A stretch of DNA of 9,611 nt from Bacteroidales bacterium (GTDB lineage Bacteria > Bacteroidota > Bacteroidia > Bacteroidales > P3): positions 1 through 9,611 of the forward strand of contig JAGBSA010000152.1 of NCBI GenBank assembly GCA_017632095.1. Direction: 5' to 3'. Of the stretch, positions 2 through 3,705 are shown piece by piece. The position numbers were made by a program, and so were the translations under genes. The first letter of the stretch is position 1, and every line of letters starts with the position of its first letter. The notes under the pieces were generated by a model. It did no database searches. It saw only the letters and a list, made by a program, of their open reading frames with translations, and had not been told where the DNA came from.

Positions 2-361
2 TTAAAAGTAATTTTGGAAGTAGGGGAGTTGAATACTCTTTCTAACATAATGAAAGCTTCTTTGATTGCCTTAGAAAATGGAGCTGATTTCATAAAAACT
101 TCAACAGGTAAAATAGCACAAGGAGCCGACATTTACTCTGTTTGTGTTATGTTATTGGCTTTAAGAAAACATTACTTCAAACAAGGAGTTTTGAAAGGTC
201 TAAAAGTATCTGGTGGAATCAGAACTTGTTCTGAGGCTTTGCAATACAGACATTTATTCGATACTTTCATAAATAAAGAAATTAAAGATAACACCTATTT
301 TCGTATAGGTTGCAGTCGTTTGTTTGAAAATATACAAGAGAAGATATTAAACATTAAATAG
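2..361 (+). CDS. deoC: deoxyribose-phosphate aldolase, C-terminal part (5' end outside window)
   Basis: DeoC cleaves 2-deoxyribose-5-phosphate to glyceraldehyde-3-phosphate and acetaldehyde in cytosolic deoxynucleoside catabolism. The frame is open from base 2 and reads LKVILEVGEL at once, matching the family segment LKVIIETGEL. The Lys codon at 5-7 is therefore the Schiff-base lysine. Further on come ADFIKTSTGK, typical of the family, and GLKVSGGIRT (about 191-220), which holds the second catalytic lysine and the phosphate-binding Gly-Gly. The catalytic Asp and the N-terminal half of the TIM barrel lie upstream of the window. An apparent TTG start at 14 is only an internal leucine. The gene ends in TAG, and the next gene starts 21 bases later with no terminator between them, so co-transcription is possible although the functions are unrelated. 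The family assignment is secure. Confidence 0.95.
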   Translation, partial: LKVILEVGELNTLSNIMKASLIALENGADFIKTSTGKIAQGADIYSVCVMLLALRKHYFKQGVLKGLKVSGGIRTCSEALQYRHLFDTFINKEIKDNTYFRIGCSRLFENIQEKILNIK

Positions 362-382
362 AAATAACAAAATTTAGATACA

Positions 383-1570
383 ATGAAAGATTTACGTTCA
401 AGATTAGCTCAATATCAAGAACCACAAAGGGTAAAAGACTTAGGGGTATATCCCTATTTTAGGGCTATAGAAAGCGAACAAGATACTGAGGTTACAATGA
501 ATGGAAAGAAAATATTGATGTTCGGTTCTAACAGTTACCTTGGTTTGACTAATCACCCTAAAATTAAGGAAGCTAGTATTGAAGCTATAAGAAAATATGG
601 CACAGGTTGTGCTGGTTCTCCATTTCTTAACGGAACGTTAGATATACACGTAGAATTAGAAGAAAAACTTGCCAAATTCGTAGGCAAAGAAAAAGCAATA
701 GTATATTCGACAGGCTTTCATACTAATATAGGTGTAATACCTACAATAGTGGGTAGGGGAGACCATATAATAGGTGATGAATTGAATCACGCTTCAATAG
801 TTGAAGGACGTCGTCTTTCTTTTGCTTCCTATCATAAATACAAACATAATGATATGTCTTCTTTGGAATCTGTTTTGCAGAAGTTGCCTTACGAAAGCAT
901 AAAACTGATTGTATTAGATGGAGTCTTTTCAATGGAAGGAGATGTTGCTGATTTACCATCAGTAATTAAACTTTCAGAAAAATATAACGCCTCTGTGTAT
1001 GTTGATGAAGCGCATAGCTTGGGAGTTTTTGGAGAAGGAGGACGAGGAATATGCAATCACTTTGGATTAACTGACAAAGTTGATTTGATAATGGGAACTT
1101 TCAGTAAATCATTGGCAACAATTGGTGGATTTATTGCAACAGATGCTGAAACGATTAACTATTTGAAACATCATTCTCGTTCATACATATTCTCAGCTTC
1201 TATTTCTCCTGCAGCAACAGCAAGTGTTATAGCCGCTTTAGATGTAATCAAACAAGAGCCTGAAAGATTGAAAAATCTATGGGAAATAACTAACTATTCT
1301 CTTTCGGCATTTCGTTCACTTGGCTTTGAGATAGGACCTACTGAAACACCGATTATACCTTTGTATATTAGGGATATGGATAAGACTTTTATAATTACAC
1401 AGTAATTATATGAACAAGGAGTATTTGTAAATCCTGTTATTCCTCCTGCATGTTCTCCAAATGATACCCTGATACGTTTTTCTCTAATGGCAACTCACAC
1501 AAAGGCACAAATTGATGAAGCAGTAGATAAGCTACATGCAATCTTCCGTAAATATGAAATAATAAAATAA
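383..1570 (+). pseudogene. spt: serine palmitoyltransferase-type PLP enzyme interrupted by an in-frame TAA
   Basis: This is an alpha-oxoamine synthase (class II PLP aminotransferase fold). Serine palmitoyltransferase condenses serine with a long acyl thioester to give 3-ketosphinganine, the first step of sphingolipid synthesis. The open part is 340 residues. It shows His136 in DELNHAS (ring stacking), Asp208 and His211 in DEAHSLG, and the PLP lysine Lys242 in GTFSKSLATIGGF. A TAA at 1403-1405 then stops it. In the same frame, codons 1406-1567 continue with LYEQGVFVNPVIPPAC and DTLIRFSLMATHT, the conserved C-terminal domain, ending at TAA 1568-1570. Together that is 395 codons, close to the usual family length. 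The truncated product would lack the substrate-carboxylate arginine (codon 365). KBL and BioF are close paralogues, but motif style and the two downstream genes favour SPT. A sequencing error cannot be excluded. Confidence 0.85.
1403..1405 (+). other. premature in-frame stop codon (TAA)
   Basis: The stop lies between FIITQ and LYEQGVFVNPV. In relatives the stretch reads like T-K-L-A-F-D-E-G-V-F, so the TAA falls on a leucine position and a single change TTA to TAA would explain it. Both sides are in the same frame and both look conserved, so this is a substitution and not a frameshift. There is no good in-frame restart: the nearest ATG (1410) is in another frame. Confidence 0.85.
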
Positions 1571-1588
1571 CAATAGAATATCATAATC

Positions 1589-2713
1589 ATGAACGACCTA
1601 ATCGTAAAAGAAGTAACCACAAGCAAGGAATTAAAACGTTTTTTCAAATTCCCCTATGAGTTATTCAAAAATGATAAAATGTGGGTACCATCTCTGTTGA
1701 TTGATGAAAAGACTACGTTTAACAAAAAGAAGAATCCTTCTTTTGAGTTTTGCGATTGCAAAATCTTTATGGCTTTTAGAGGAAATAAAGCCGTAGGACG
1801 TATTGTAGGAATAATAAATAAGAAAGCCAATATCATTTGGAAAGAGAACAGAGTTAGATTTGGTTGGTTTGATTTCATAGATGATAAAGAAGTAAGCAAA
1901 GCTTTATTAGATGCAGTTATTGAATGGGGAAAAGAAAATAAGATGAAAGAGATTGTAGGGCCTATGGGCTTTACCGATATGGACAAAGAAGGAATGATGG
2001 TAGAGGGTTTCGAAGTGGATTGTCCTATGTCTTGTTATTACAATACTTCATATTATCCCGAGCATATGGACTATTTTTCCTACAAAAATGAAGTTGATTG
2101 GATTCAATACCAAATTCCGGCCAATCAACCAGTGCCTGATAAAGTTCATCGCATAAATGAAATGATACGAAACAAGTATTCATTGAAGATAGTTCAAGAT
2201 ATGAAAATGTCAGAAATAGCAAAGAGATATGGCTCAAAGCTATTTGACTCTATCAATGAATCTTTTTCTCACTTGTTTGGCTACGTTCCATTGAACGAAA
2301 GACAAAAACAATTTTACATCAATCAATATTTCCCTTTTTTAGATAAAAGACTTATCTGTTTGATTGTAGATAGTAATGACGATGTTGTAGCATTTGGTGT
2401 TTCTTTACCTTCGTTAAGTAAAGCGCTTCGCAAATGTAAAGGTAAGTTATTCCCATTTGGTTGGATTCATTTGTTGAAAGCATTGAGAAATTTCGAGAAT
2501 ATAGACCTTTATCTTAATGGAGTAAGACCTGAATGGCAAAATAAAGGAATACATTCTATTTATTATGCAGAAATGAATAAAAGTTATATCGCTCTTGGTG
2601 CAAAGATGGCAATTGCTAATCCACAATTGGAAACGAATAAAGCAGCTAATATTTGGGAAAAATACGATAGTCGTGTAGCTATAAGAAGAAGAGCGTATAT
2701 TAAATCTATATAA
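1589..2713 (+). CDS. GNAT-fold acyltransferase, candidate bacterial ceramide synthase
   Basis: This is a 374-residue cytosolic-looking protein with no signal peptide or membrane helix. Two halves resemble GNAT domains. The N-terminal half has FGWFDFIDD (91-99) and a conserved-looking GPMGFTDMDKEGMM block (124-137). The C-terminal half has VRPEWQNKGI (312-321), which has the form of the acyl-CoA-binding motif A of N-acyltransferases, followed by a NPQLETN...WEKYDSR segment. It sits between an SPT-type gene and an extended SDR. Bacterial ceramide synthases are GNAT-like proteins found with these partners, so N-acylation of sphinganine to dihydroceramide is the likely role. That role is inferred from fold and neighbourhood; a generic N-acetyltransferase with another substrate remains possible. 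It starts 18 bases after the SPT reading frame ends and stops 8 bases before the next gene, which indicates one operon. The leader is A-rich without a Shine-Dalgarno sequence. Confidence 0.75.
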   Translation: MNDLIVKEVTTSKELKRFFKFPYELFKNDKMWVPSLLIDEKTTFNKKKNPSFEFCDCKIFMAFRGNKAVGRIVGIINKKANIIWKENRVRFGWFDFIDDKEVSKALLDAVIEWGKENKMKEIVGPMGFTDMDKEGMMVEGFEVDCPMSCYYNTSYYPEHMDYFSYKNEVDWIQYQIPANQPVPDKVHRINEMIRNKYSLKIVQDMKMSEIAKRYGSKLFDSINESFSHLFGYVPLNERQKQFYINQYFPFLDKRLICLIVDSNDDVVAFGVSLPSLSKALRKCKGKLFPFGWIHLLKALRNFENIDLYLNGVRPEWQNKGIHSIYYAEMNKSYIALGAKMAIANPQLETNKAANIWEKYDSRVAIRRRAYIKSI

Positions 2714-2721
2714 CAAATAGT

Positions 2722-3705
2722 ATGAAAAAAGTTTTGGTAACCGGTGCAAGCGGTTTCATAGGAAGTACTCTTATAGATAGATTGCTAGAACTTGGAAATT
2801 ACGATGTATATGCAGGAGTAAGGAGTAGTTCTAACAGAAAGTATTTGCAGAATCCTGATATAAAATTCATAGATATTGCATTTTCCAATGTAGAAAGATT
2901 GAAGGAACAATTGGAACAAGAAAATTTCGATTGTATATTTCATCTTGCAGGATTGACAAAGGCAAAGAGTCAAGAGGAATTTGATAAGGTTAATTTCGGA
3001 TTTACGAAAAATCTTATCGATGCAATAGATCCGCAAATTACAAAGTTGATATTTTTCTCTTCTTTTGCAGCTCATGGACCGGGAGAGGAAGTTTCGTTCA
3101 CTAAGGCTAAGGTTTCAGATGAGAATAAACCGAATACAGCTTATGGACGCTCGAAACTGAAAGCCGAAACTTATATTAACGAAAATTTTAAGGGCAAATA
3201 TGTGATTCTTCGCCCAACTGGTGTGTATGGTCCACGTGAAACAGATTATTTTGTTTTCTTTCAAACGATTGATAATCACATAGAACCGTATCTAGGTTTC
3301 GTTTCACAACATCTAACTTTCGTTTACTCAAAAGATTTAGTGGAAGTATCTATTCAAGCCTTTGAAAGCGAGATCTCAAATAAGACTTACTTTGTTAGTG
3401 ATGGGAATATGTATTTAGATTCTGAGTATGCGGCGATTTCTAAACAAGTGTTAGGAAGTTGGACTTTGAAATTAAAATTCCCTCTTTTTATTGTAAGATG
3501 GATTTCTTTGCTTTTGGATTCCGTAGGTCGTCTAATCGGTAAACAATTTACTTTGAACAAGGATAAATATTCAATCTTAGCAGCGCGCAACTGGGATTGT
3601 GATATTGAGGATTTGAAGAAAGATTTGAATTATGTGCCGAAGTATGATTTGCAAAAGGGGGTAGAGGAGACTATTGCTTGGTATAAGAAAGAAAAATGGC
3701 TGTAA
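2722..3705 (+). CDS. extended SDR NAD(P)-dependent reductase, candidate 3-ketosphinganine reductase
   Basis: This is a 327-residue extended short-chain dehydrogenase (NAD-dependent epimerase/dehydratase family). The N-terminal Rossmann motif TGASGFIG (7-14) binds the cofactor. The catalytic elements are Ser113/Ser114 in FFSSFAAHG, Tyr141 and Lys145 in AYGRSK, and the PTGVYGPRE segment (165-173) typical of extended SDRs. The region around 251-273 is hydrophobic (FPLFIVRWISLLL) and could sit against a membrane or bind a lipid. With an SPT and a GNAT acyltransferase upstream, the likely reaction is reduction of 3-ketosphinganine to sphinganine, as done by the CerR-type SDR of other sphingolipid-making bacteria. 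The substrate is inferred from context; the sequence alone gives only the family. It is the last gene of the cluster, followed by a 65-base gap. Length and motifs look intact. Confidence 0.75.
   Translation: MKKVLVTGASGFIGSTLIDRLLELGNYDVYAGVRSSSNRKYLQNPDIKFIDIAFSNVERLKEQLEQENFDCIFHLAGLTKAKSQEEFDKVNFGFTKNLIDAIDPQITKLIFFSSFAAHGPGEEVSFTKAKVSDENKPNTAYGRSKLKAETYINENFKGKYVILRPTGVYGPRETDYFVFFQTIDNHIEPYLGFVSQHLTFVYSKDLVEVSIQAFESEISNKTYFVSDGNMYLDSEYAAISKQVLGSWTLKLKFPLFIVRWISLLLDSVGRLIGKQFTLNKDKYSILAARNWDCDIEDLKKDLNYVPKYDLQKGVEETIAWYKKEKWL

Follow-up and report, generated by a model that had tools for sequence, protein, structure and literature searches.

In the pathway model proposed for Caulobacter, as set out in the accessible part of the source, bCerS acylates 3-ketosphinganine and CerR then reduces the product (PMC11087976). 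For SPT, the entry enzyme of sphingolipid synthesis, the Sphingobacterium structure assigns stacking to His138 and identifies Lys244 as the PLP lysine; in the available portion of that paper, the contacts named for the serine carboxylate are His138 and waters, and the term Arg3 had no match in its main text (PMC10196870). In B. thetaiotaomicron, a transposon located at 88% of the BT0870 gene ablated sphingolipids, according to the accessible part of the report (PMC7235224). Here, these systems are compared with an SPT gene that is interrupted by one in-frame stop codon. A single fragmentary assembly is the only source of this stop, which most likely is not biological.

The interrupted SPT gene and its surroundings

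The stretch of DNA analyzed (the window) is one whole contig (C167, 9611 bases) of the fragmentary genome bin G000, which comprises 1.51 Mb in 288 contigs and is 73.35% complete. The gene order is deoC (cut), SPT, a 374-residue acyltransferase, an epimerase/dehydratase-type reductase, thioredoxin, recA, nadE, and purF. The deoC and SPT genes, the reductase domain, and thioredoxin were named by NCBIfam or Pfam models, and the names of recA, nadE, and purF were read from the translations without a family search. Among the matches listed, a protein of “Candidatus Onthomorpha sp.” showed 89% identity to the window SPT; this genus is classed in Bacteroidales incertae sedis. The features of the locus are as follows:

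2..361, + strand: deoC (deoxyribose-phosphate aldolase), of which the contig start leaves the 3' part; used as a synteny marker; TIGR00126 score 58.3 bits against a cut-off of 117.3
383..1402, + strand: first 340 codons of SPT; the aligned counterparts of His138 and Lys244 (PLP lysine) in the Sphingobacterium enzyme are retained
1403..1405, + strand: in-frame TAA at codon 341, found only in this bin among the relatives examined
1406..1570, + strand: last 54 codons of SPT and the natural stop, undegraded and the same as in P0002
1589..2713, + strand: 374-aa acyltransferase, presumed to be of the bCerS type from its predicted tandem-GNAT fold and its co-occurrence nested with SPT
2045..2089, + strand: stretch of the acyltransferase with three private residues (codons 153, 163, and 167) in comparison with nearly identical entries; chance of such clustering 0.004
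2722..3705, + strand: 327-aa NAD-dependent epimerase/dehydratase, presumed ceramide reductase (CerR type) from PF01370 and its position

The ORF at 383-1405 contains 340 codons and is closed by the TAA at 1403-1405. Past this codon, the same frame remains open for 54 codons and ends at the TAA at 1568-1570, giving 395 codons with the inner stop included. This geometry had been described by the sequence-only reading and was confirmed in the sequence, as was its statement that one in-frame stop breaks the gene while the genes downstream of SPT are open. It had called 395 codons the expected length; the NCBIfam model NF047600 (SPT) has 395 positions. This model was the best for both pieces and matched them at positions 3-341 (E 3.6e-174) and 343-394 (E 6.2e-21) of 395; the two matches are much too strong for chance and follow each other collinearly without a gap. 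When scored separately, the pieces reached 579.1 and 74.5 bits, each below the cut-off of 640. The first rank of NF047600 for both pieces supports the earlier assignment to the SPT type rather than to glycine C-acetyltransferase or BioF, and the KBL-type and BioF-type paralogues of the genus were ranked first by their own models.

The truncation removes the last 54 residues, including Arg365, which was conserved in 109 of 109 loci. Lys244 and His138 of Sphingobacterium SPT were aligned and identical before the stop; the query in the alignment to the 8guh and 3a2b chains was the intact relative P0002, which is the same as the window in this part. The sequence-only reading had the substrate-binding arginine lost with the C-terminus. 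A conserved arginine does lie past the stop; however, its substrate role found no support, as the accessible text on the Sphingobacterium enzyme names His138 and waters instead. The stop lies at codon 341 of 395, i.e., at 86% of the gene, close to the place of the BT0870 insertion, in agreement with the earlier expectation of an inactive product. Thus, if the stop is real, the truncated SPT is probably inactive. A search for a second SPT in the genome, as had been proposed, found none in the bin, which is 73% complete; its only other SPT match (G000:C238) proved to be a contig-cut gene of the glycine C-acetyltransferase type.

Occurrence of the stop and of the pathway in relatives

Six database proteins of 395 residues, encoded on 12 contigs, were full length and 99–100% identical to the window SPT over 340 residues, which suggests that they come from the same species. 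P0002, present on seven contigs, equals the window frame at all 394 other codons and differs only at codon 341. A leucine codon (TTA) had been anticipated at this place, but the six nearly identical proteins encode an acidic residue there. In 109 fetched loci of relatives, codon 341 specified M (39), D (33), E (28), L (7), N (1), or K (1). The residue is variable; therefore, it is the truncation that matters and not the position.

The stop was not shared. Among the best 120 of 8000 scored proteins, SPT lengths were 395–406 residues, and no protein of 340 residues was present. The contig of the window itself is apparently part of this database, in which an identical acyltransferase is recorded on a contig of 9611 bases. 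Four of the five other genomes of the genus carried a full SPT frame of 396–402 codons, and the fifth (G004) had no SPT. In the family, 142 of 190 genomes matched SPT with an E value of 1e-100 or lower, and one of these 142, the window's own, has an in-frame stop (0/141 others). The order sample gave an SPT match in 135 of 393 genomes, with an in-frame stop again only in the window's own genome (1/135; 0/134 others); four matching genomes, the window's own included, are common to both samples. None of the 109 fetched loci, which overlap with the family genomes, contained an in-frame SPT stop. Thus, the stable and functional 340-residue form that had been considered for relatives was seen neither among the best proteins listed nor in the family, the order sample, or the fetched loci. 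Viral contigs were also searched for closely related DNA; the 24 pattern matches included no relative. At one locus of the order sample (G324:C37:4940-5890), the SPT match ends at query residue 320 in a 340-codon frame, which may reflect a contig end or a real short gene.

The acyltransferase had no significant match to a Pfam or NCBIfam family and no PDB sequence match at E 1. Its AF2 model (mean pLDDT 91.7) yielded Foldseek matches to tandem GNAT acyltransferases, the best with a TM-score of about 0.6 by query length. A gene with a predicted tandem GNAT fold is adjacent to SPT and a reductase, the combination expected of a bCerS. At E 1e-100, both SPT and the acyltransferase were present in 142 of the 190 family genomes, SPT alone in none, the acyltransferase alone in five, and neither in 43, 15 of which contained a weaker acyltransferase relative. 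This strict nesting of SPT within the acyltransferase-bearing genomes supports a shared pathway; from it and the gene context, we infer the individual roles of bCerS for the acyltransferase and CerR for the reductase. The count of 43 genomes with neither gene includes incomplete assemblies. Several of the 43 are more than 90% complete, which suggests that the pathway disappeared more than once in the family. A single open frame of 710 codons holds both the acyltransferase and the reductase match in two congeners (G002:C23:43212-45329; G003:C160:5431-7548), so that the presumed partners appear to be fused there.

The sister species G004 (100% complete, 1% contamination) has deoC, 17 bases, the acyltransferase, and the reductase at the corresponding locus (L107:4955-8024; G004:C40), with SPT absent; its only SPT-like match at E 1e-30 was a glycine C-acetyltransferase-type gene. 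The acyltransferase and reductase of G004 were 83% and 78% identical to those of the SPT-bearing sister G002, within the range of the other genes compared here (DeoC 70%, NadE 80%, and RecA 96%), so no decay is visible in them. The remaining genomes with the acyltransferase alone at E 1e-100 were G161, G166, G186, and G188. In G161 and G166, the gene lies near or at a contig end, so that both are only candidates for SPT loss. G186 and G188 were rejected as counterparts of G004, as their arrangement is different: an acyltransferase relative (41–43%) stands beside an ORF resembling a short-chain dehydrogenase. Neither genome (G186:C4, L171; G188:C1, L172) has an SPT at E 1e-100; of the neighbor ORFs, that of G186 was family-scanned.

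Explanations for the stop

We tentatively favor the view, with a confidence only a little better than even, that the species does not have the SPT stop, which would be a consensus error in a fragmentary assembly; an assembly error was among the options listed by the sequence-only reading, and it emerged as the likeliest of them. In that case, the gene would encode an ordinary SPT of 395 residues, predicted to make 3-ketosphinganine from serine and acyl-CoA for the adjacent acyltransferase and reductase. Three observations favor such an error over a real nonsense allele, namely the fragmentary state of the bin, a frame break in its dxs gene, and clustered private residues in the acyltransferase. 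We infer that the stop, the dxs break, and the clustered residues are all sequencing or assembly errors, although a fresh, real nonsense allele would look alike.

The dxs break was found in a survey in which 93 of the 953 ORFs of the sister genome G005 were matched at ≥60% by the window and 63 other bin contigs; the breaks recorded were the stop in the window SPT and the frame break in dxs. The latter (TIGR00204) is located at about 8656-8668 of contig C19 (L191; G000:C19) and adjoins six consecutive A. A single intact protein of 635 aa matches the two dxs pieces at 97.7% and 98.7% identity. In G002, G004, and G005, dxs forms a single open frame; G001 and G003 gave partial matches. Among 120 listed entries, one short dxs entry (P0204, 406 residues, 82% identity) was present. 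DXS is normally essential, and the loss of dxs would be hard to survive, which makes the bin consensus suspect. A second “stop” of the survey (an L201 ORF against G000:C19) was judged by eye to lie in a spurious ORF. In the reverse survey, 75 of 231 bin ORFs matched G005, with three stops in two ORFs (two in one L181 ORF and one at the end of deoC) and no frame break; these stops were left out of the tally.

In the acyltransferase, 640–690 bases downstream of the stop, three private residues fall within 15 codons in comparison with 13 nearly identical entries, and two of them affect sites that are unchanged in 119 other listed entries. The chance of three random codons falling within 15 of 374 is 0.004. 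The anomaly consists in this clustering only. By count, the gene is no outlier, which speaks against an error: 12 of the 13 entries have 0–2 private residues themselves and one more divergent entry has 9, and the gene departs at three conserved sites, one of these departures being common to all 13, while 5 of the 119 other acyltransferase entries listed show 3 or 4 such departures. At sites with at least 98% identity among 43 mostly more distant relatives, it did not deviate at all. Three private residues could also be a real polymorphism or early decay. Further points against a consensus error are that SPT codons 1–340 and the dxs pieces contain no excess of odd residues and that the two breaks differ in kind: the dxs break is an indel by a homopolymer, which slippage might tolerate, and the SPT change is a substitution. 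In the same conservation test that covered the 43 relatives of the acyltransferase, the counts of 2/283 sites for RecA, 30/269 for NadE, 28/503 for PurF, and 5/40 for thioredoxin came from 3–7 relatives only and were not used as evidence.

The strongest competing explanation, to which we give a probability somewhat short of even, is a true and very recent nonsense mutation, carried by the strain or, in a mixed population, by a minority; de novo sphingolipid synthesis would then be lost. SPT-null Bacteroides are viable, as stated in the accessible parts of two reports (PMC9278070; PMC7235224). Within the family, the sphingolipid pathway is often absent and a sister species has no SPT; since the pathway seems dispensable, a real null allele is plausible. 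The remainder of the SPT frame is intact, as a fresh mutation predicts. Against this explanation, the stop is missing from the six nearly identical proteins on their 12 contigs, and the same bin carries the dxs frame break.

In a more far-reaching reading, SPT would be an expendable entry gene in the genus. The occurrence of a ceramide-type gene pair without SPT in G004 suggests, from gene content, the use of scavenged sphingoid bases; this species may thus make ceramides from host or dietary sphingoid bases, and the window strain would represent the initial stage of such an SPT loss. We regard this combined scenario for the genus as unlikely. No SPT-less ceramide maker was recognized in the accessible portions of the literature consulted.

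An early decay of the whole sphingolipid locus, with SPT stopped first and the acyltransferase now drifting, appears more doubtful still. It presupposes a real allele, so that the confidence given to the two explanations overlaps a little. Both anomalies are indeed located in adjacent genes of one presumed pathway, and the regular residues of the dxs pieces and of SPT 1–340 are in line with it; however, three changes in 15 of 374 codons are improbable under even drift (0.004), SPT is otherwise unchanged relative to P0002, and none of 47 conserved sites deviates in the reductase.

Stop readthrough or recoding, which would restore a full-length SPT and which had been listed among the earlier options, is highly improbable: the conservation of the frame past the stop, its main attraction, is explained by recency, no relative examined has the stop, and TAA or TAG also terminates the remaining main genes of the window, which argues against reassignment of TAA. 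Phase variation, also suggested earlier, disagrees with the difference of a single codon and the lack of a repeat run at the stop. A functional 340-residue form normal in the lineage can practically be dismissed in view of the 395–406 residues of the best-scoring proteins and the 396–402 codon frames of the four SPT-bearing congeners.

Comparison with known systems

The preferred explanation, a consensus error, carries a caution: before a lone stop in a genome bin is taken as loss of function, it should be checked against copies from the same species, with essential genes as controls. If the stop is real, the window would represent a natural SPT null of a gut bacterium, useful since SPT decides the commensal sphingolipid supply to the host. 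More lasting interest attaches to the SPT-less sister species, which makes sphingoid-base scavenging testable.

Like the Bacteroidota SPTs (NF047600; Sphingobacterium multivorum 3A2B/8GUH; B. thetaiotaomicron BT_0870), the two window pieces together are collinear over the whole length and keep the aligned catalytic lysine and histidine; unlike them, the window copy stops at codon 341, and its first piece alone remains under the NF047600 cut-off. In the B. thetaiotaomicron mutant SLMUT, the same enzyme is disrupted at nearly the same relative place; according to the accessible part of its description, SLMUT is a laboratory insertion with measured sphingolipid loss, whereas the loss in the window is predicted (PMC7235224). 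Prevotella copri offers a parallel in that related gut strains differ in sphingolipid output; in contrast to the window, the available part of that study gives one SPT candidate per genome and differences in accumulated sphingolipids, with no SPT null (PMC10865984). Finally, although the roles of the partner genes in the window are putative, unlike those of Caulobacter, the locus comprises the same three presumed steps as the Spt-bCerS-CerR system in the accessible account of it, with an acyltransferase and a reductase next to SPT (PMC11087976).
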